From: Sulfurovum sp. bin170
GTDB lineage: Bacteria > Campylobacterota > Campylobacteria > Campylobacterales > Sulfurovaceae
DNA: 8,375 nucleotides
Direction of reading: 5' to 3'
NCBI RefSeq assembly: GCF_010892395.1
Contig: NZ_JAACKB010000125.1
Span: 1-8,375, forward strand
Within the stretch, counting starts at the first letter, position 1. Each line of letters opens with the position of its first letter. The notes beneath the pieces are model-generated. The model was not told the DNA's origin, made no database searches, and was given only the letters and a program-made list of their open reading frames with translations. Positions 1 through 8,375 of this stretch are shown in pieces. A program made the translations under genes and the position numbers.

Positions 1-2685
1 ACAAAGTTCATCAAAACCCCTCTCACGCTCCACCTCCCAAAACTTCTCAAACTCATCAGCAATGCTCTCACTATCTTCAATACTCATCAGATTTTCATTG
101 ATAAATTTCTCTATCAACTCTCGTTTAGAACGCAAAGAGGCATCACCATTAATAATATTTGAGATATGCTCTTTTTGAGCTTTTTTATCCTCCTCTTTAG
201 CATCTTTGAGTCTGCCCAACAGCATCAAAATATAACTCACATTTATCTCATCGACCTGTATCAGTTCAAGTTCAAAATCCACATCTTCTAGTATCGAAAC
301 CTTTTCACTCTCTCTGTTACTCTTGATGCTATCATAGAGGTCGAGGTACTTAGATTTATAATCCTCAAACTCCTGTGCCGACATCTCCAAATCATCAAAA
401 CCAAAGTCAGAAAACCCTGCCAAGATATTTTTGAGTCTCATCAATGCTCTAAAAGCCTGAACAAACACAAACTGGCTCTCCTCATCATCAAGCTCATCTA
501 CCGAATCAACCGTAGGAGTAATAACCAAAAGCTTCTCTCTATACGCCTCATCAAACTCACCCAGATACTCCTCATAAGGCTTCATCAAAATAATATCTTT
601 GGCATCTTTGTTAGAAAAGAGAGCAATAGCATCATCGGTATTGGGTTTCAAATTTCTAAAACAGACGATATTCCCTTGCGATTTCTGCTCATTTAGTATC
701 CGATTGGTTCGTGAAAAGGCTTGGATAAGTCCGTGATATTTCAAATTTTTATCCACATAAAGTGTATTGAGCGACTTCGCATCAAACCCTGTCAAGAACA
801 TATTGACCACCAACAAAATATCTATCTCTCGGTTCTTCACCCTCTTAGAAAGCTCATTGTAGTAGTTGTAAAAACTCTGTGAATCTTTGGTGCTGTACTT
901 CGTGCCAAACATCGTATTATAATCACCTATAAACTCATCGAGCTTCTCACGGCTATGCATATTTTTTGGAGATAAAAGCTCTTCTTCGCTCGGAATCGAC
1001 GGCTTTAGCCTCGCTTTGTTCGGGACTGAAGTCTCCGATTCCGAAAAATCCAGCTCTATAATGCCATCAGCATCTTTGTCCTCTTCATTCGCCGTATAAG
1101 AAAAGATAGTCGCAATTTTAAGCTTATGTTCTTTGGCTTTAAACATCTCATAGTACTTAATAAGCATCTGAACCGAACTCACACACATCATCGCTGTAAA
1201 CTCTCTGCTATGCGTTTTGCGTGAATGGTTAGCGATAATATAATCCACTATCTTCTCCACCCTCACCTCACTCTCTAGCAACGCTTTGGTATCTATCGCC
1301 TCAACATCTATGTCAATATTGGTTGCCGACCCCTCTTTCTCACGGTATCGCCCCACATACTCCACCGAAAATTTCAATACATTATCATCACCTATCGCAT
1401 CGGTTATCACATACTTGTGCAACACATCATCAAAGAGCTGTCTTGTGGTGCGTTTCCCAAGCTTATTCCCCACAGCATTCTCTTCAAAAATAGGCGTACC
1501 TGTAAACCCTATCATCTGATTGTTAGTAAAAAAATTGCTGATAGCTAAATGCGTCTCACCAAACTGACTACGGTGACACTCATCAAATATAAAGACAATA
1601 TGCTCATCCCTCACCTCTTCCATCTCTGCCAAATATCGTGTTTTACTTATAGCAGTGTTGAGCTTCTGTATGGTGGTCACAATGAGCTTGGTATCATCTC
1701 CAAACTGTCGCACCAAAGCTTTGGTATTGTCCGTACCATCGACCGAGCCATCAGAAAAGCTGTTAAACTCTTTGGTGGTCTGATAGTCCAAGTCTTTTCT
1801 ATCCACCACAAACACCACCTTGTGTACCTTTGGCAACTTCATCAATATCTGTGAAGCCTTAAAAGAAGTGAGCGTCTTCCCTGAACCTGTGGTGTGCCAG
1901 ATATAACCGTTTTTGTCGCTGTTGTTCACCCTCTCTATTATCGCTTCCACAGCATGAAACTGATAGGGTCGTAGCACCATGAGAATTTTGGGTACTTCTG
2001 CTAAAACAATATATTTACATATCATCTTCGCCACATGACATCGCTCCAAAAAAACATCGGTAAAGGATTCAAGATTAGTGATATTGTTGTTCTGCTCATC
2101 TGCCCAGTAAAAAGTCTGTTTAAAAGTTTGCACCTTGTTGTTCGAGTAGTACTTGGTATTAACCCCATTACTAATCACAAAAAGCTGTATGTAGTTAAAA
2201 AGTGCCGAGTTCGACCCATAAGAGTGCCGTTGATAACGGTTAATCTGATTAAACGCCTCTTTGAGTTCCAAGCCACGCCGTTTGAGTTCTATCTGAACCA
2301 AAGGCAATCCGTTTATAAGAAGCGTCACATCATATCGGTTTTTGTAAACACCCTCTACTGTTACTTGACTTGTCACTTGAAACTCATTTTGACACCAGTG
2401 TTCAGAGTTTAAAAACTCGATATATTTGGTCGTGCCATCATCACAACTGAGTGAAAACTTATCTCGTAACAGCTTTGCTTTTTCAAATACAGAGCCTTTG
2501 TTCAGATAATTCAATACGCGTTTGAACTCTTGGTCACTTAAGGTAGTGTTGTTGTGGATTTCCAGTTGGGTTTTGAGATTGGCTTCTAGGGCTTTGTCAT
2601 CTTTTATGGTGACTTTTTGGTATTCTAGTTTTGCTAGTTGCTCTATGAGATTTGTTTCTAGTGTCGCTTCGCTTTGAGTTCCCAT
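1..2685 (-). CDS. hsdR: Type I restriction enzyme subunit HsdR (C-terminus beyond window)
   Basis: Motor and nuclease subunit of a type I restriction enzyme: it uses ATP to translocate DNA toward the bound HsdM/HsdS complex and cuts far from the unmethylated target. The frame is open for 895 codons from ATG 2685 and runs off the window edge. An AGGGG Shine-Dalgarno (2691-2695) lies 5 nt before the start. Visible motifs are the nuclease D119, E133-x-K135 and QINRY (147-151, the HsdR QxxxY motif); Walker A GSGKT (267-271); DECH (368-371); GFTGTP (393-398); a TGFDA motif before the last helicase motif; and QAFSRTNR (655-662). The segment LRSKRELIEKFI near the window edge is typical of HsdR C-terminal regions, so I estimate that roughly 80-120 residues are missing. 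Residues about 548-566 are encoded by a palindromic repeat inserted in frame. No frameshift or lost catalytic residue is seen, so the protein is probably active. Confidence 0.96.
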   Translation of the reverse strand, partial: MGTQSEATLETNLIEQLAKLEYQKVTIKDDKALEANLKTQLEIHNNTTLSDQEFKRVLNYLNKGSVFEKAKLLRDKFSLSCDDGTTKYIEFLNSEHWCQNEFQVTSQVTVEGVYKNRYDVTLLINGLPLVQIELKRRGLELKEAFNQINRYQRHSYGSNSALFNYIQLFVISNGVNTKYYSNNKVQTFKQTFYWADEQNNNITNLESFTDVFLERCHVAKMICKYIVLAEVPKILMVLRPYQFHAVEAIIERVNNSDKNGYIWHTTGSGKTLTSFKASQILMKLPKVHKVVFVVDRKDLDYQTTKEFNSFSDGSVDGTDNTKALVRQFGDDTKLIVTTIQKLNTAISKTRYLAEMEEVRDEHIVFIFDECHRSQFGETHLAISNFFTNNQMIGFTGTPIFEENAVGNKLGKRTTRQLFDDVLHKYVITDAIGDDNVLKFSVEYVGRYREKEGSATNIDIDVEAIDTKALLESEVRVEKIVDYIIANHSRKTHSREFTAMMCVSSVQMLIKYYEMFKAKEHKLKIATIFSYTANEEDKDADGIIELDFSESETSVPNKARLKPSIPSEEELLSPKNMHSREKLDEFIGDYNTMFGTKYSTKDSQSFYNYYNELSKRVKNREIDILLVVNMFLTGFDAKSLNTLYVDKNLKYHGLIQAFSRTNRILNEQKSQGNIVCFRNLKPNTDDAIALFSNKDAKDIILMKPYEEYLGEFDEAYREKLLVITPTVDSVDELDDEESQFVFVQAFRALMRLKNILAGFSDFGFDDLEMSAQEFEDYKSKYLDLYDSIKSNRESEKVSILEDVDFELELIQVDEINVSYILMLLGRLKDAKEEDKKAQKEHISNIINGDASLRSKRELIEKFINENLMSIEDSESIADEFEKFWEVERERGFDELC
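990..1044. repeat. Palindromic repeat inserted in frame within hsdR
   Basis: A 55-bp element with perfect 9-bp terminal inverted repeats, TCGGAATCG (990-998) and CGATTCCGA (1036-1044). Each half contains a small hairpin: GGCTTTAGCC (1001-1010) and GACT-GA-AGTC (1024-1033). It encodes HsdR residues 548-566 (FSES...ARLKPSIPS), between the DECH/GFTGTP half and the TGFDA/QAFSRTNR half of the motor. Related sequence lies at 5467-5532 and 6622-6677, so this is a dispersed family and not a peculiarity of hsdR. Confidence 0.8.
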
Positions 2686-2711
2686 TTTTTCCCCTGAATG
2701 TTGTTTTGAAT

Positions 2712-2720
2712 ATTATAACA
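2712..2720 (-). promoter_or_regulatory. Extended -10 promoter for hsdR
   Basis: On the minus strand this reads TGTTATAAT, an extended -10 box with a perfect TATAAT, 26 nt before the hsdR start codon. No good -35 box is visible at 17 nt, but the upstream stretch is T-rich. The string TTATGTTATA is shared with the box before rhuM. A start of transcription near 2705 would give a leader of about 20 nt carrying the AGGGG site. hsdR can therefore be expressed apart from hsdM and hsdS. Confidence 0.6.
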
Positions 2721-2763
2721 TAATCGTCAAAATCAAACCAGCAAATCAATATATTGGAAACGG

Positions 2764-2910
2764 CGTAGGTCGGGTTGCCCTCATCCCGACAATGATTTAC
2801 ATATAAAAATATTCTATCGTTCAATGGTTATTTATATACCAATATTATTTGTTTTATTGGGTTTTTTATTTATGCGTGTTTATGTCGGGATGAGGGCAAC
2901 CCGACCTACG
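2764..2910. repeat. REP pair (BIME-like element) between hsdS and hsdR
   Basis: Two perfect 28-bp inverted copies, at 2764-2791 and 2883-2910, are separated by 91 bp of AT-rich sequence. Each copy starts (after a leading C) with GTAGG and then folds on itself as GTCGGG...CCCGAC. A GTAG head followed by an imperfect hairpin is the published hallmark of REP sequences mobilised by RAYT transposases. The right copy ends one base after the hsdS stop codon. This element and the hsdR promoter fill the hsdS-hsdR gap (2686-2911). There is no U-tract, so it is not a standard intrinsic terminator. Confidence 0.8.
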
Positions 2911-2911
2911 G

Positions 2912-4126
2912 TTACACAAACATCTGTTGCAACAACCCCTTCTTAAAGCTTTTACTCTCTTCTATCTGCTTGTTTACCTGCTCAATTTTTTTGTCTATGG
3001 AAGATAGGAAGTTTGCTATTTTTGTTTGTTCTGCTTTTTGTGGTAAATTTAATTTTAAAGATTTTAATTGTGATGAATATAAATGCACAACAGAAATACC
3101 TTGTGATAATCTTGCAATATCAAGTTTCATTTTACTATTCAAATAATAAGCCAAAAAAATACCATTTTCATTACTTCTTATAATATTTAAATCTCCACTT
3201 AATGCAACATCATCTTTTAATACACATGAAGCTGTTGCAATATCAATTTGAGTTTCACCAGAAGCAGGAATAATAACATCATTAAATTTACTAAAAACTA
3301 AATTATTTCTATCTAAATTAGTTTTTGATTTTATTTCTGAAATCACCTCATTGTAAATAGTATAAAGCTCTCCATAACGAATACACTCTATTTTCCCATT
3401 TTCAACAATATCAGATTTAGATATTCCTTTTCCTTTGAAAAAAATAGCAACCTCCCCCAACTTCCTCTCAACCCAATCCCCAAAAACCTCACCATCATCA
3501 CCCCTAAACCGTATCTCCTGAGAAAAAATCTTCTGCATCACCCCTTTTTTATAAGCAACCAAAAGCTTCTCTTTTTTTGTTAGTTGTTCTATTTTTTGGT
3601 CTACTGCTGTTAGGAAAGTGGCTATTTTTTGTTGTTCTTCTTTATAGGGTAGGTTTAACTTTAAGGTTTTTAATTGAGATGAATAGAGATGTACAACAGA
3701 AATTCCTTGTGATAATCTTGCAATATCTATTTTTTTGTTACTATTTAAATAATAATCTAAAAAGAGTCCATTTTTATCTGTTTTAATAATATTTAAATCA
3801 CCACTCAAAGCTACATCATCTTTTAAAACACATGAAGCAGTTGCAATATCAATTTGTGTTTCACCAGATGCAGGAATGATGACATCATTATATTGACTCA
3901 ATATCAAATTACTTTTATCTAAATTTGTTTTTGATTTTATATTTTGAATTAATTCTCCATATACTGTATAAAGCTCACCATAACGAATACACTCCAAATG
4001 ACCATCTTTTGTAATATCAGATTTTGAAATACTTTTTCCTTTTGAAAAAGTAGCAATATCCCCTAACCTCTCCTCAACCCACTCCCCATCAAACTCCCCA
4101 AATCTCAATGTTGGTACATTAAGCAT
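2912..4126 (-). CDS. hsdS: Type I restriction-modification specificity subunit HsdS with twin TRDs
   Basis: DNA-recognition subunit of the type I complex, 404 residues, a usual length. The layout is TRD1 (about 1-160), central conserved helix (about 161-200, with EEQQKIATFL and KKGVMQKIF), TRD2 (about 205-362), and C-terminal conserved helix (363-404, with AEQTKIANFL and KKGLLQQMF). The two halves align with a 202-residue offset. Residues 33-160 and 235-362 are about 80% identical by hand count, and residues 80-114 equal 282-316 exactly. Usually the two TRDs of an HsdS differ, each reading one half of an asymmetric site. Here both should read the same half-site on opposite strands. The start ATG has a strong GGAGG at 4133-4137, 6 nt upstream. 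The TRDs are much more AT-rich than the conserved helices and hsdM, a sign of domain exchange. The gene is bracketed by REP pairs. Confidence 0.96.
   Translation of the reverse strand: MLNVPTLRFGEFDGEWVEERLGDIATFSKGKSISKSDITKDGHLECIRYGELYTVYGELIQNIKSKTNLDKSNLILSQYNDVIIPASGETQIDIATASCVLKDDVALSGDLNIIKTDKNGLFLDYYLNSNKKIDIARLSQGISVVHLYSSQLKTLKLNLPYKEEQQKIATFLTAVDQKIEQLTKKEKLLVAYKKGVMQKIFSQEIRFRGDDGEVFGDWVERKLGEVAIFFKGKGISKSDIVENGKIECIRYGELYTIYNEVISEIKSKTNLDRNNLVFSKFNDVIIPASGETQIDIATASCVLKDDVALSGDLNIIRSNENGIFLAYYLNSKMKLDIARLSQGISVVHLYSSQLKSLKLNLPQKAEQTKIANFLSSIDKKIEQVNKQIEESKSFKKGLLQQMFV
3041..4030 (-). repeat. Internal tandem duplication of the TRD-coding segment in hsdS
   Basis: The segments 3041-3424 (TRD2) and 3647-4030 (TRD1) encode 128-residue blocks that align without gaps. 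In the identical 35-residue core (3179-3283 and 3785-3889) I count 11 base differences in 105, all synonymous. The copies are therefore diverged at the DNA level but held the same as protein. The DNA similarity is high enough for recombination or mis-assembly between the two halves. Confidence 0.9.
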
Positions 4127-4235
4127 AACGAGCCTCCGTAGGTTCGATTTTATCGAACATTTTTATACCTATTTGATATTTTTGTTCGATAAAATCGAAC
4201 CTACAGTATTTAAATATTTTCATCTCACGCATCAT
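4119..4235 (-). CDS. Possible 38-residue leader ORF coupling fic to hsdS
   Basis: ATG at 4235 overlaps the fic stop as ATGA, and GAGG lies 7 nt before it. The frame stays open through both arms of the REP pair and ends at TAA 4119-4121, 8 nt inside hsdS. Its product would begin MMREMKIFKY and end PTEARYA, with no recognisable domain. The stop-start overlaps at both ends and the presence of a ribosome site suggest a translational-coupling leader, not a functional protein. An ORF this short could also occur by chance, and it consists largely of repeat sequence. Confidence 0.35.
   Translation of the reverse strand: MMREMKIFKYCRFDFIEQKYQIGIKMFDKIEPTEARYA
4133..4137 (-). promoter_or_regulatory. 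Shine-Dalgarno GGAGG of hsdS, abutting the REP pair
   Basis: GGAGG stands 6 nt before ATG 4126, which fixes the hsdS start. Its 5' base directly touches the base of the REP hairpin (4138). A long stem in the mRNA would end exactly where the 30S subunit must bind, so folding or translation through the stem could alter hsdS expression. Confidence 0.8.
4138..4204. repeat. REP pair (BIME-like element) immediately upstream of hsdS
   Basis: Two perfect 22-bp inverted arms, 4138-4159 and 4183-4204, surround a 23-bp AT-rich loop. Each arm starts GTAGG and itself contains the hairpin GTTCGAT-TTT-ATCGAAC. The architecture (GTAG head, self-complementary body, paired inverted copies with heads outward) matches the element at 2764-2910, but the hairpin sequence differs. 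It nearly fills the 105-nt fic-hsdS gap. I see no extended -10 box in the rest of that gap. Confidence 0.8.
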
Positions 4236-5365
4236 ACTTTCACCTCATAACAGACATTACGCCCTAAACTTCCCTCTATCTGAACGATACACCCATACTC
4301 CAACAACTCATTTATATCTCGCACGGCTGTTGCTCGGCTTGTTTTGGTCATTGACATATATTTTTTGGTATTGATACCACCCTCAAAATCACTCTTGTCC
4401 AAAACTTTACCCAACACCTTTAGCTGTCTAGAATTCAGGCTCTTGTCTCTGCATCTATCCCAAAATTTTGTCTTGGCAATCACATCATCTATTCTCTCTA
4501 GTGCCATCTCCATTGCATGGCTCAAGGTCTCCAAGTGCCACAATAACCAAGGGGTAAAATCATAATCACGATTCTTAAAAAGATTGGTCGTTCGGTCTAA
4601 AATAGCATAATACCCTTTTCTATCACTGTTTACTGCCATCGAAAAGGAGTAGAGTTTAAACGCATTTTCGTCACTTTGGCTAGAGAGCAGATAATCAGTA
4701 ATGGCTCGTGCAATCCGTCCATTACCATCATCATAAGGGTGGATAATCACAAACCACAAATGAGCCAAAGCACTCTTGATATAGATGTTTTCATCAGCAC
4801 CATTACTCCACTCCAAAAGCTCCAAAATATCCTGCCGAATCCATTTTTGAGGAAGAGCCAAATAGTGTACCTTTTCCTGACCCATTGCTCCAGAGACCAC
4901 CTCCATCTCATCATGTGTTCTAAACGAAGCCACATCAATCTTGGTCAATACATCAAAGCGTTTTCCCTCAAACAGAGCATTATGCCACGCATGAAGTCGC
5001 TCCACCTCCAGAGGCTTACGGTTCAAACTGCAATCCAACAACACAGCCACCAACGCATCACTCTGATGGGTTGAGCTGTCCTCTAGGGCTAAAAACTCTC
5101 TATCTAGTCTTTTTTTTAATGAGTTCTGCACACTCTGTCGACGAAGATACTCCCCCTCTATCGCCGAAGTATGTAACGCCTCTTCGGTCAATATATCAAC
5201 CTCAACACTCACCCTATCTCGCTCACTGAAAAACTTTGCTACCCCATCAAGCAGACCACGCCTATACTCAAGAGAAACCAATAACTCTTTTAACTGACTT
5301 TTATCATAAGAAAAATGGGGATAGTTCTCATGTTGCCATACCCATTTTTTGATATTTTGCTCCAT
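4232..5365 (-). CDS. Fic family protein with N-terminal inhibitory-helix motif and winged-helix C-terminus
   Basis: Probable Fic-domain AMP transferase or related nucleotidyl transferase, 377 residues from ATG 5365. The N-terminus (WVWQHENYPHFSYD) matches the DUF4172-type start seen in this Fic subgroup. TSAIEG (about 66-71) fits the [ST]xxxE[GN] inhibitory motif whose glutamate blocks ATP binding. The catalytic loop HPYDDGNGRIAR (about 209-220) has every key residue of HxFx(D/E)GNGRxxR, with Y for F. The last 65 residues look like a winged helix (TSRATAVRDINEL...). Start choice: AAGGG (5371-5375) lies 5 nt upstream, homologues begin near WxWQ, and an extended -10 box is at 5397-5405. The alternative start is ATG 5536, with AGAGG 7 nt upstream and just after the rhuM stop. 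It would add 57 residues encoded partly by a repeat element. The protein substrate is unknown. Confidence 0.9.
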   Translation of the reverse strand: MEQNIKKWVWQHENYPHFSYDKSQLKELLVSLEYRRGLLDGVAKFFSERDRVSVEVDILTEEALHTSAIEGEYLRRQSVQNSLKKRLDREFLALEDSSTHQSDALVAVLLDCSLNRKPLEVERLHAWHNALFEGKRFDVLTKIDVASFRTHDEMEVVSGAMGQEKVHYLALPQKWIRQDILELLEWSNGADENIYIKSALAHLWFVIIHPYDDGNGRIARAITDYLLSSQSDENAFKLYSFSMAVNSDRKGYYAILDRTTNLFKNRDYDFTPWLLWHLETLSHAMEMALERIDDVIAKTKFWDRCRDKSLNSRQLKVLGKVLDKSDFEGGINTKKYMSMTKTSRATAVRDINELLEYGCIVQIEGSLGRNVCYEVKV

Positions 5366-5396
5366 TTTAACCCTTTTGAACCAATTAAGTGGTCTA

Positions 5397-5405
5397 ATTG
5401 TATCA
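5397..5405 (-). promoter_or_regulatory. Candidate extended -10 promoter for fic
   Basis: The minus strand reads TGATACAAT, an extended -10 box with one mismatch to TATAAT, 31 nt before ATG 5365. It supports the shorter fic start, because a transcript starting here would lack the 5536 start. The -35 region is weak. Confidence 0.4.
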
Positions 5406-5466
5406 TGTTTCGAGTCAATTAACACCTTTAATTGTTTCATTTTAAGCTTTTTTTGAATCAAATAGT

Positions 5467-5532
5467 TCGGGTGTAAACACGCCGATTCCGAAAATGCAGA
5501 TTGCACATAAGGAACCGATGGCTTTAGCCTCG
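5467..5532. repeat. Rearranged palindromic repeat between rhuM and fic
   Basis: Two half-units of the family at 990-1044 lie here in inside-out order. TTCGGG...CGATTCCGA (5467-5491) is followed by a 19-bp spacer and GGAACCGATGGCTTTAGCCTCG-like sequence (5511-5532). If translated from 5536, it gives ARLKPSVP and FSES, nearly the same peptides and the same reading frame as the hsdR copy. Part of the 183-nt rhuM-fic gap is thus repeat-derived. The remainder up to the fic promoter shows nothing I recognise. Confidence 0.65.
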
Positions 5533-5548
5533 CCATATTCAAACCTCT

Positions 5549-6544
5549 CTATTCACCATCATAAATCATATTCAGAATCAACCGTATAATTATATCTTTC
5601 TGTTCAGGCATACTAGTCGCCACCAAAAGAGCCAAAGAAGCCAACGCATTATCGTTTATCTTCAACTCACCATTTGCTTTGTACAACGCCCTGTTTTTCG
5701 CCAAAAACAATATAAACAGATACGCCCCAATCCGTTTGTTACCATCATTAAAAGGGTGACCTTTTATCACATAGTAGAGCAGATTTGAAGCTTTTTGCTC
5801 CAACGAGGGCAAGAGGTCAATCCCTCCAAAAGTTTGGTAGATATTGAGCAAGTTCCCCTTGAACTCACCTGCTTTCTCTTGTCCAAAAAGTACCGTCGCT
5901 TCACCTTTGTTCATTAGCGTTTTTTTGAAAAGCTCTATCGCCTCTTTGGCTTCATCATAACCCAAGATAAACTTCTCTTCACTGTTTTGTGTCACCTCTG
6001 CTAGACTCTGCTCATCATACCCCTGCAACAACGCCCAACTTCGTGCATAGTTACTCACAATCTCCACAAAACCTTTGGACTCGGCGAGAGTTAGTTCATG
6101 GTTTTCAATATTGCTTTTTATGAGTGCTATGGTAGCGTTTAACTCATCTAGTTTTCTCTGTTGAAGTCGCTCTTTGTTGAGGGCATAGCCTTTTATGAGG
6201 TACTCTTTTAATACGCTATTTGCCCATATACGAAACTTTGTACCCTCTTTTGATTTGACTCTATATCCTACAGAGATAATGACATCAAGGGTATAACATT
6301 GAATATCTTTAGTTTGAGTTTTTCCCTCTATCGCACCATGTTGAGTGGTATGTGCAAAATTTGCACATACCACTTTTTCTTCCAATTCTTCTTCTTTGAA
6401 AATATTTTTAATATGCTTAGATATAACACTTCTATCTCTATTAAAAAGCAACTCCATCTGTTTTTGACTCAACCAAATAGTCTCATTCTCAACCGTTGCA
6501 TTTAGGGCAACCTCTCCATTTTCATAAATTACAATATCACTCAC
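5549..6544 (-). CDS. rhuM: RhuM family protein with C-terminal Doc/Fic motif
   Basis: A 331-residue protein of the RhuM/Fic/DOC family, a usual length for it. Residues 1-125 form the RhuM part, with a helix-turn-helix-like stretch (about 22-49, LSQKQMELLFNRDRSVISKH) and the family signature YTLDVIISVGYRVKSKEGTKFR (84-105). The C-terminal part carries HPFNDGNKR (263-271). Lysine replaces the second glycine of Fic GNGR, as in Doc, which phosphorylates EF-Tu instead of adding AMP, so this may be a phosphotransferase or a regulator. The start is GTG 6544, with AAAGGG at 6551-6556 and 6 nt spacing. RhuM genes are often found inside type I restriction loci and their role there is not settled. A perfect 31-nt palindrome lies within the coding sequence at 6344-6374. 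Confidence 0.92.
   Translation of the reverse strand: MSDIVIYENGEVALNATVENETIWLSQKQMELLFNRDRSVISKHIKNIFKEEELEEKVVCANFAHTTQHGAIEGKTQTKDIQCYTLDVIISVGYRVKSKEGTKFRIWANSVLKEYLIKGYALNKERLQQRKLDELNATIALIKSNIENHELTLAESKGFVEIVSNYARSWALLQGYDEQSLAEVTQNSEEKFILGYDEAKEAIELFKKTLMNKGEATVLFGQEKAGEFKGNLLNIYQTFGGIDLLPSLEQKASNLLYYVIKGHPFNDGNKRIGAYLFILFLAKNRALYKANGELKINDNALASLALLVATSMPEQKDIIIRLILNMIYDGE
6344..6374. repeat. Perfect 31-nt palindrome inside rhuM
   Basis: Fifteen-base arms (6344-6358 and 6360-6374) are perfectly complementary around a single central A, with core TGTGCAAA/TTTGCACA. It falls in codons of the segment VVCANFAHTT (58-67). It could be a DNA-binding site, an mRNA hairpin, or a consequence of the encoded peptide. 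The palindrome itself is certain; its function is unknown. Confidence 0.7.
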
Positions 6545-6563
6545 GATTCACCCTTTTTTCACA

Positions 6564-6572
6564 AGTATAACA
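6564..6572 (-). promoter_or_regulatory. Extended -10 promoter for rhuM
   Basis: The minus strand reads TGTTATACT, 19 nt before GTG 6544, in the context TTATGTTATA, which matches the hsdR box. Initiation here would leave a very short leader starting close to the AAAGGG site. A rival reading uses TTGACA (6599-6604) with a poor CATATT -10 (6575-6580) at 18 nt spacing. Either way this 147-nt gap carries signals for separate expression of rhuM. Confidence 0.5.
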
Positions 6573-6621
6573 TAAATATGAAAAAATGTTAAAAAATATG
6601 TCAAATTGTAATACTTTTACA

Positions 6622-6677
6622 GGAAACGCAGACTTTAGTCGCGTAAAAATATAGACGAGGCTAAAGCCATTGATTCC
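6622..6677. repeat. Palindromic repeat between hsdM and rhuM
   Basis: A third, more degraded member of the family at 990-1044: GGAA...GACTTTAGTC (6631-6640)...GAGGCTAAAGCC (6657-6668)...GATTCC (6672-6677). Both internal hairpins are kept with the ends outward, as in hsdR. It begins 15 bp after the hsdM stop and about 50 bp before the rhuM -10 box. It could affect 3'-end stability of the hsdM message, but no U-tract follows, so a classical terminator is not supported. Confidence 0.65.
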
Positions 6678-6691
6678 AAGAAATAACTTCA

Positions 6692-8254
6692 TCAAAATGG
6701 AGCTTTAATCCCCAACTCATCACAAAACCCAACTATGACTTTATCGCTCTCTTTCATCTCTACTTCCAAATCTTTTAAAGCTTTGGAAACCTCAGCCAAA
6801 TCAACAGCCTCTTCCTCTTCAAAAGTATCCACATAACGAGGAATATTGAGATTATAATCATTCTCGGCTATCTCTTTAAGGGTCGCACGATGAGAGTATT
6901 TATCTTCTGCCTTTCGCTCTCTAAAAGTGGTCACAATCTTCTCTATATCTTCATCACGCAAAAGGTTCTGATTTTTCACCTTCTCAAAATGGGCAGAGGC
7001 ATCTATAAACATCACACAGTCACTATCTTCACGGCATTTTTTGAAAACCAAGATAGAAGTAGGAATGCTCGTACCATAAAAGATATTCGCAGGAAGCCCA
7101 ATCACAGCGTCCAAGTAGTTTCGCTCTTCTATAAGGTAACGCCGTATATGTCCCTCACTAGCCCCACGAAATAGCACACCGTGAGGCATAACTACAGCCA
7201 TCGTACCGTTGTCATCGAGATGGTGAATCATGTGTTGAATAAATGCAAAATCTGCTTTGGTTTTTGGGGCAAGTTTTCCGTATTGAGAAAACCTATCATC
7301 TCCCAAGTGCAGAGGGTTCGCCGACCAGTGAGTCGAAAAAGGAGGATTGGCGACAATCGCTTCAAAATGTTGGTCAAGATGTTGTGGATGCTCTAGCGTA
7401 TCCTCTTGTCTAATGTCAAACTTTCGGTAGTGAACATCGTGCATTATCATATTCATTCGTGCAAGGTTGTAGGTGGTACGATTTAGCTCTTGACCGTAGA
7501 AGTTACTGACATCTTCCACCTCTCTGGCTACTCTTAAAAGTAGCGAACCCGAACCACAAGTTGGGTCATAAACCGACTTTAGTTTACCCTTTTTAGTCGT
7601 AACAATTTTAGCTAAAATCTTAGAAACCTCTTGAGGAGTATAGAACTCACCTGCCTTTTTACCAGCACCCGATGCAAACTGCCCTATGAGGTACTCATAC
7701 GCATCACCCAAAACATCACGGTCATGATTTTTAAGCTCAAAATCTATTTTGTTTAGATGAGAAAGCACCTTGGCAATAAGCGTGTTTTTTGCCTCTTCAC
7801 TTCGTCCAAGTTTGGTACTGGTCAAATCAAGGTCTTCAAAAAGATGTTCAAAATCATCCTCACTCTCCTGCCCCATTGTGCTTTGCTCTATACTGCCCAG
7901 TATCTGTGTAAGGTCTTCGAGTATGAAGTTGTCGGTATCACCATTACCTCGTTCTGCCACAGCCGAAAAGAGTTCAGATGGTTTCAAAAAATATCCAAGC
8001 TGTTCTAGAGAGTCCTCTTTTATCGCTTCGAGATACTCCTGCCCCTCAGTGCTCTGCTCATCTATATTATCATAAATTAGCTCATCCTCTTGCAAGATAT
8101 GGTCAGCATGGTTTTGCATCTTTTCAGAGAGATATTTGTAGAAAATGAACCCCAAAATATAGTCTCGAAACTCATCTGCATCCATCTTGCCACGCAAGGT
8201 ATTTGCGATATTCCATAGTTGTTGTTCTAACTGTTTTTTCTGCTCTTCGCCCAT
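6692..8254 (-). CDS. hsdM: Type I restriction-modification methyltransferase subunit HsdM
   Basis: Methylates adenine N6 within the target chosen by HsdS, protecting self DNA and forming the core that HsdR joins. It has 520 residues, a usual length. The N-terminal helical domain (about 8-150, LWNIANTLRGKMDADEFRDY) matches HsdM_N. The catalytic domain has EFYTP (203-207), the AdoMet-binding motif DPTCGSGSLL (230-239) and the catalytic NPPF (303-306, the N6-adenine form). The C-terminal tail (about 480-515) is charged and helical, fitting contact with the HsdS helices. AGAGGG (8262-8267) lies 7 nt before ATG 8254. The gene is first in the locus and has its own promoter, which fits methylation being set up before restriction. 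All motifs are intact. Confidence 0.97.
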   Translation of the reverse strand: MGEEQKKQLEQQLWNIANTLRGKMDADEFRDYILGFIFYKYLSEKMQNHADHILQEDELIYDNIDEQSTEGQEYLEAIKEDSLEQLGYFLKPSELFSAVAERGNGDTDNFILEDLTQILGSIEQSTMGQESEDDFEHLFEDLDLTSTKLGRSEEAKNTLIAKVLSHLNKIDFELKNHDRDVLGDAYEYLIGQFASGAGKKAGEFYTPQEVSKILAKIVTTKKGKLKSVYDPTCGSGSLLLRVAREVEDVSNFYGQELNRTTYNLARMNMIMHDVHYRKFDIRQEDTLEHPQHLDQHFEAIVANPPFSTHWSANPLHLGDDRFSQYGKLAPKTKADFAFIQHMIHHLDDNGTMAVVMPHGVLFRGASEGHIRRYLIEERNYLDAVIGLPANIFYGTSIPTSILVFKKCREDSDCVMFIDASAHFEKVKNQNLLRDEDIEKIVTTFRERKAEDKYSHRATLKEIAENDYNLNIPRYVDTFEEEEAVDLAEVSKALKDLEVEMKESDKVIVGFCDELGIKAPF

Positions 8255-8284
8255 CTTTTGACCCTCTGTTTAATTCTTGATAGG

Positions 8285-8293
8285 ATTATATCA
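8285..8293 (-). promoter_or_regulatory. Extended -10 promoter for hsdM
   Basis: The minus strand reads TGATATAAT (perfect TATAAT with TG extension), directly preceded by TTTTT and 30 nt before the start codon. A T-rich region instead of a clear -35 box is typical of Campylobacterota housekeeping promoters. The expected leader is about 24 nt and includes AGAGGG. Confidence 0.65.
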
Positions 8294-8309
8294 AAAAAGA
8301 CTCTTTAGC

Positions 8310-8375
8310 TTACTTCTTAAATGGTTTTATCAAAACAAACAGTTTGGGTAGAAGCAAAATATCAGCAATCAAAGC
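8310..8375 (-). CDS. Possible C-terminal end of an upstream gene
   Basis: The minus strand is open from the window edge for 21 codons to TAA at 8310-8312, giving a hydrophobic tail with a lysine-rich end (ALIADILLLP...PFKK). This could be the last residues of a membrane protein preceding hsdM, but a stretch this short is easily open by chance. No other gene sign is visible in 8294-8375. Confidence 0.2.
   Translation of the reverse strand, partial: ALIADILLLPKLFVLIKPFKK

Follow-up and report, generated by a model that had tools for sequence, protein, structure and literature searches.

The window analysed here is an 8,375-nucleotide stretch of Sulfurovum sp. bin170 (contig NZ_JAACKB010000125.1, positions 1 to 8,375), and it carries a Type I restriction-modification locus whose specificity subunit, HsdS, has two closely similar target recognition domains (TRDs) in one full-length chain. 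The half-sites recognized by HsdS on the two strands are predicted to be identical or almost so, and the locus is therefore likely to methylate an interrupted palindrome. In a Type I enzyme (M2S1), the TRDs are made to face opposite strands by a pair of antiparallel helices, each TRD presents a base to one HsdM, and HsdR translocates and cuts DNA with unmethylated sites. Because the antiparallel helices orient the TRDs oppositely, equal TRDs would specify an interrupted palindrome; the asymmetry of most known Type I sites stems from the difference between their two TRDs. A preliminary description of this DNA had proposed one half-site read on both strands, and given the close family relationship of the two TRDs and an EcoR124I-like HsdR this stands as the best prediction; the site itself may be quasi-palindromic, because membership in the same TRD family does not guarantee the same half-site.

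Alignment of the two halves of HsdS, together with the secondary structure of its model for the helices, located the following parts:

2912–4126, minus strand: hsdS, 404 aa, two tandem TRD-plus-helix halves at an offset of 202 aa.
3647–4030, minus strand: TRD1 (N-slot), HsdS residues 33–160, 79.7% identical to TRD2.
3041–3424, minus strand: TRD2 (C-slot), residues 235–362.
3785–3889, minus strand: identical core in TRD1, residues 80–114.
3179–3283, minus strand: identical core in TRD2, residues 282–316.
3524–3643, minus strand: coiled-coil helix D1, residues 162–201.
2921–3037, minus strand: coiled-coil helix D2, residues 364–402.

Residues 33–160 and 235–362 align without gaps and are identical at 102 of 128 positions. 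The gapless match of about 80% that had been described is therefore exact, as is its span of 3041–4030, since residues 362 and 33 map to window positions 3041 and 4030. Whole halves taken at the 202-residue offset are also gapless (134/202 identical), and helices D1 and D2 share 19 of 40 residues. The longest identical runs comprise residues 80–114 (35 aa), 134–153 (20 aa), and 45–54 (10 aa), the first of which is the 35-residue core reported earlier. HsdS matches Pfam Methylase_S in two stretches (9e-35) and PADLOC Specificity_I (2.4e-109), and was modeled by AlphaFold2 with a pLDDT of 95.2 and a pTM of 0.86; its two TRDs are joined by long helices, as expected of a Type I S subunit.

Between the TRD copies, 39.8 of 80.0 synonymous sites (pS 0.50, dS 0.82) and 34.2 of 304.0 nonsynonymous sites (pN 0.11, dN 0.12) have changed, and the 35-residue core has 11 synonymous and 0 nonsynonymous differences between TRD1 and TRD2. 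The lack of any amino-acid change over these 35 residues, set against the synonymous divergence, leads us to infer selection on the recognition core. A run of at least 35 identical residues was obtained in 31 of 20,000 shuffles of the 26 differing positions, and was present in 6 of 640 matched pairs. The identical core, which is unusual for this TRD divergence, suggests selection for a shared half-site. Such selection would hold the recognition core of both TRDs, so that one specificity is kept; the paired TRDs would then present the same half-site on opposite strands, and HsdM would methylate an interrupted palindrome. In the stretches flanking the TRD (residues 10–32 and 161–202), dN was above the TRD's own, and no clean flanking repeats were resolved; in S genes of the domain-movement type, x and y repeats on either side of each TRD mediate the movement.

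The host assembly is a fragmented draft of 462 contigs, as would suit an artefactual TRD copy produced by misassembly or chimera formation, a possibility that the preliminary description had itself raised. Such an artefact is exceedingly improbable: the second TRD is not an assembly duplicate, because roughly half of the synonymous sites have changed between the copies, and on this divergence we rejected the artefact. In addition, the two copies have different nearest relatives and the hsdS reading frame is continuous.

A number of observations weigh against identical half-sites. First, the core, although identical, is partly a family feature, and its identity is less telling than it seems because most of it is conserved across the TRD family: among 88 close TRDs, a median of 31 of the 35 core residues matched, and all 35 matched in none. 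Second, a mismatch in a likely DNA-contact loop directly precedes the aligned segment 33–160:

4031–4033, minus strand: codon of Ser32, which corresponds to Gly234 in TRD2.

The S32/G234 column in the 88 close TRDs is occupied by G in 74, S in 7, and N in 7, and F230, D124, and M333 are found at their columns in 0 of the 88. Read by eye, the S32 loop aligns with EcoKI residues ~23–29; Tyr27 of EcoKI HsdS is said to crosslink to DNA, a statement that we sought in PMC3874165 without result. The loop positions, near residues 29–36, 84–96, 104–112, and 139–147 and at the equivalent sites 202 residues further on, were derived from aligned ranges and the residues named in PMC9613975 (here and below, all papers except PMC4335341 are cited from excerpts). 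They are approximate, because PacII was absent from the sequence-profile matches, and the loop segments were placed after the identical runs had been seen. Third, of 18 proteins tested that have alike halves (the window protein among them), 8 had loops no more alike than those of matched unrelated pairs, so similarity between halves does not necessarily imply similar sites; homologs P0002 and P0006 are examples with unlike loops. Fourth, Helicobacter pylori TRDs that differ at only a few positions recognize CTA in one case and CCA in the other, and no identity threshold separating TRD specificities was found in that species (PMC3983042). Finally, no methylation data were found for the host.

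The two TRDs might accordingly be imagined to read related, non-identical half-sites by means of the S32/G234 and S28/F230 loop differences, and the site would then be quasi-palindromic or, in the ordinary way, asymmetric. The mismatch at a conserved loop column, within the EcoKI-aligned segment, the documented specificity changes of a few residues (PMC3983042), and the freedom with which loops differ in the 8 of 18 proteins all favor this alternative, which we nevertheless consider unlikely, as the two copies, for all their synonymous divergence, agree fully in the remaining loops and in the 35-residue core. We retain the reading of one shared, or nearly shared, half-site.

The preliminary description had called such an arrangement uncommon for an intact Type I enzyme. 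As a baseline, a PF01420 search of 199 genomes of the same order gave matches in 125, and 87 loci among the matches listed, which were ranked by E-value, were used (30 fetched and 57 hand-chosen with an open frame of ~367–455 aa). They contained 127 open reading frames (ORFs) of 330–620 aa; a home-made profile of HsdS halves recognized 81 of these, of which 80 were two-halved, and removal of identical proteins and short halves left 79 HsdS proteins. The identity between N- and C-terminal halves (N/C identity) in these 79 had a median of 27.4% and a maximum of 52.4%, and reached at least 60% in 0 of 79. With the same profile and rule, the N/C identity of the window HsdS was 73.8%, and it was 75% with a profile built from its own halves. 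The other PF01420 HsdS of the host genome (contig C204, locus L001, ~832–2046) has ordinary unlike halves that are 25.4% identical, and a 340-aa ORF overlaps the 3' end of its gene.

Rarity within the order was thus borne out, but it did not extend to the best-ranked homologs, where 12 of 128 other proteins had an N/C identity of at least 70%. The homologs were taken from a search with the protein (best 120 of 7,999 scored) and a search with TRD1 (best 120 of 8,000), together 148 proteins, a set biased toward alike halves because it was ranked by similarity. Two complete halves were present in 129 of the 148, with an N/C identity of at least 60% in 21 and at least 70% in 13, the window HsdS counted in both. 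Homologs P0057 (99%), P0010 (98%), and P0022 (92%) are near-exact doubles and are candidates for very recent in-gene TRD copying; the hosts of P0010 and P0022 may be available for methylation calls, because these proteins are encoded on contigs of 2.3 and 4.6 Mb. In a first tree, built from 132 half domains of 66 of the first 120 homologs, the N and C halves of many proteins fell into separate groups, and own N and C halves were sisters at a Shimodaira–Hasegawa-like approximate likelihood ratio test (SH-aLRT) value of at least 95 in nine proteins (P0008, P0009, P0010, P0012, P0017, P0022, P0057, P0060, and P0062), so alike halves arose repeatedly. We tentatively raise the possibility, about which we are more doubtful than confident, that symmetric Type I enzymes with a full-length S form a recurrent natural class, in which the same TRD repeatedly came to occupy both slots in different hsdS genes of this TRD family, its core then being held identical by selection and the rest drifting; an inherently asymmetric reader would thereby come to read palindromes. 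If symmetry is selected, the question arises of why some hosts forgo the larger site repertoire of two different TRDs.

As to origin, the nearest relatives of TRD1 among the matches listed are the N-slot TRDs of P0067 (90%) and P0083 (88%), and those of TRD2 are the N-slot TRDs of P0065 and P0137 (84% each) and the C-slot TRDs of P0049 and P0052 (83%). P0067 and P0083 carry a TRD1-type domain in one slot and another type in the other, because their own halves are only 39% and 33% alike, respectively (the second half of P0083 being partly matched). In a tree of 96 TRDs, which has few columns and an unsettled bootstrap, TRD1 grouped with the N-slot TRDs of P0094, P0067, and P0083 at 97/82, with TRD2 outside. 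Close TRDs occur in both N and C slots of other proteins, which are homologs and may or may not be alleles of a single locus; this is the slot pattern of the domain movement (DoMo) S genes of H. pylori, whose TRDs occur in either slot (PMC3077401). The window TRDs are probably two members of one TRD pool, which would have been joined in one gene by shuffling among related hsdS alleles, and not the product of a fresh duplication. In-place duplication of one half, or in-gene TRD copying, is rather unlikely. The first tree did pair TRD1 with TRD2 at SH-aLRT 84, and P0010 and P0057, with halves 98–99% alike, look like in-gene copies; however, the first tree lacked the closer relatives, and with these included TRD1 grouped apart from TRD2 at the values given above, which weakened the earlier support for a recent in-gene duplication.

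A natural full-length HsdS with a symmetric site, as the preliminary description had conceived it, would not be the first: M.BstXI, with a full-length S whose two TRDs are similar, methylates CCAN6TGG, a symmetric site (PMC4335341). Like M.BstXI, the window HsdS holds two closely similar, non-identical TRDs within one chain; unlike BstXI, which has a Type II endonuclease partner, it is accompanied by an EcoR124I-like HsdR. The combination of a full-length S, alike TRDs, and a symmetric site is already known from BstXI. What is new is that such a case is predicted for an EcoR124I-like system, that it is absent from the order sample and recurs among homologs, and that the core contrasts with the synonymous divergence. 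Two TRDs of the same family in a naturally occurring full-length S offer a clean test of TRD similarity as a predictor of half-site identity, and the window HsdS would allow one TRD type to be measured in both slots at once.

Symmetric sites are also found among truncated forms. EcoR124I, EcoDXXI, and NgoAV, which a 2013 review gives as its symmetric cases formed by homodimers, belong to Type IC; truncated EcoR124I HsdS(delta50), the EcoDXXI half-S, and NgoAV recognize symmetric interrupted palindromes (PMC3874165), which agrees with the earlier statement that half-size HsdS of the EcoR124I/EcoDXXI type gives symmetric targets. EcoR124INT is described as a further Type IC case with a symmetric site. 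The window system is like these four in its Type IC placement and in having two alike TRDs per enzyme, and unlike them in that, instead of two copies of a truncated or halved S pairing, both TRDs lie in a single 404-aa chain, that is to say, it is not a half-S homodimer of the NgoAV type. An engineered half-S of Staphylococcus aureus CC398 recognizes ACCN5GGT (PMC6158711). EcoRD2 and EcoRD3, which have the matching half-sites GAA N6 RTTC and GAA N7 RTTC (PMC3874165), are constructed Type IC hybrids with TRDs from EcoR124I and EcoDXXI. In H. pylori, both slots of one Type IIG allele are occupied by the same TRD (PMC3077401), strain F32 has the palindromic Type I-like motif RGAN7TCY, with the gene not assigned (PMC3983042), and members of a TRD group are identical or nearly so, whereas the window copies are 80% identical. 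PacII has an asymmetric site and two different M subunits (PMC9613975); its M1M2S–DNA structure (7vs4) is 14% identical to the window HsdS in sequence, and 1yf2 is 24% identical. In the top-ranked openly licensed literature, where BstXI, NgoAV, and the H. pylori cases came up, we found no characterized Type I system that is complete with HsdR and whose full-length S bears one TRD twice, nor was there one in the excerpts of PMC9465063 (a possible exception), PMC13335696, PMC8597746, PMC10030836, PMC7591249, PMC5399793, and PMC4752239. In Mycoplasma agalactiae, ten N6-methyladenine (m6A) motifs are called palindromic, with both strands methylated, and eight of its motifs are assigned to Type I (PMC9465063).

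The remaining genes of the window are, like hsdS, all on the minus strand:

6692–8254, minus strand: hsdM, 520 aa, N6-adenine methyltransferase; TIGR00497 at 456 bits (cut-off 243).
5549–6544, minus strand: RhuM-Fic/Doc gene; Virulence_RhuM (5.6e-24) plus Fic; best PADLOC model PDC-S23 (2.2e-126).
4232–5542, minus strand: Fic gene (DUF4172 plus Fic); PADLOC SoFic (6.2e-33); true start uncertain.
1–2685, minus strand: hsdR, EcoR124I-like, 895 aa inside the window, with the C terminus beyond the window end.

The co-occurrence of hsdR, hsdM, and hsdS is the gene content of a Type I system, and the expected motifs are kept: DPTCGSG at 230 and NPPF at 303, the S-adenosylmethionine-binding and catalytic motifs of HsdM, and E-x-K, GSGKT, and DECH, the nuclease and motor motifs of HsdR. 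HsdR matches 4bec (HsdR, 6.8e-169) and 2w00 (1.2e-168) and has the EcoR124_C domain. What the window contains appears to be an intact Type I restriction-modification system cut by the window end, and it can be placed in Type IC by the kinship of its HsdR to EcoR124I (E ~1e-168), not by the strict in silico family rule of >90% identity in HsdM and HsdR (PMC5399793). A decaying or inactive system, in which symmetry would be without consequence, is very improbable: activity is predicted from sequence only and a repeat element adds ~19 residues to hsdR, but dN/dS between the TRD copies is low, the frames are uninterrupted, and the HsdM and HsdR motifs are intact. The RhuM-Fic and Fic genes (4232–6544) separate hsdM from hsdS and contain the sequences GHPFNDGNKR and HPYDDGNGRIAR, respectively.

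Relatives were searched for a half-site. The only solved HsdS relative by sequence at E ≤0.001 was 1yf2 (5e-19). Plasmid relatives over the TRD came from Pseudoalteromonas nigrifaciens (60.5%), Arcobacter (47%), S. aureus (46%), and Escherichia coli (41%), and no motif was found that could be attached to them; no half-site is accordingly put forward here. A phage search with the window TRD and a viral-contig scan with the window HsdS protein gave no match; a genome-contig scan with HsdS gave 4 loci at 29–43%. P0012, which has alike halves, stands for 19 sequences and 123 contigs; when it was searched against plasmids and viral contigs, its best plasmid match was 47%, and two viral loci matched at 30% and 29%. 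In the Arcobacter (L055, 338–922) and S. aureus (L057, 1858–2433) plasmid loci, a short hsdS precedes hsdM and a long hsdS follows, an arrangement similar to that of hsdS_short of Staphylococcus xylosus (PMC10030836); the Arcobacter plasmid has a RhuM gene between hsdM and the long hsdS.

Three families of repeats were observed in the window. A palindromic repeat of ~50–60 bases lies at 990–1044 (in hsdR), 5466–5540 (upstream part of the Fic frame), and 6625–6680 (the gap between hsdM and the RhuM-Fic gene). In the host genome the core of this repeat is present 108 times (reversed control, 0), and it was seen in 20 of 60 genomes examined, host included, all of the same genus. The copy in hsdR accounts for ~19 residues absent from R.EcoR124, with the frame unbroken; of the copies read in 20 fetched loci, most fall within short ORFs, and one, at L024, falls within a 780-aa ORF and has the same frame. 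The repeat resembles the in-frame palindromic elements of Rickettsia. A perfect 28-base inverted repeat (2764–2791/2883–2910, with 91 bases between the arms) lies just downstream of hsdS; its arm has 17 genome occurrences at ≤2 mismatches, both window arms included, and it looks like a small mobile or repetitive extragenic palindrome (REP)-like element. A perfect 22-base inverted repeat (4138–4159/4183–4204) lies between the Fic gene and hsdS, and its arm has 5 genome matches at ≤2 mismatches, two of which are the window arms. Inverted repeats on both sides of hsdS could help allele exchange.
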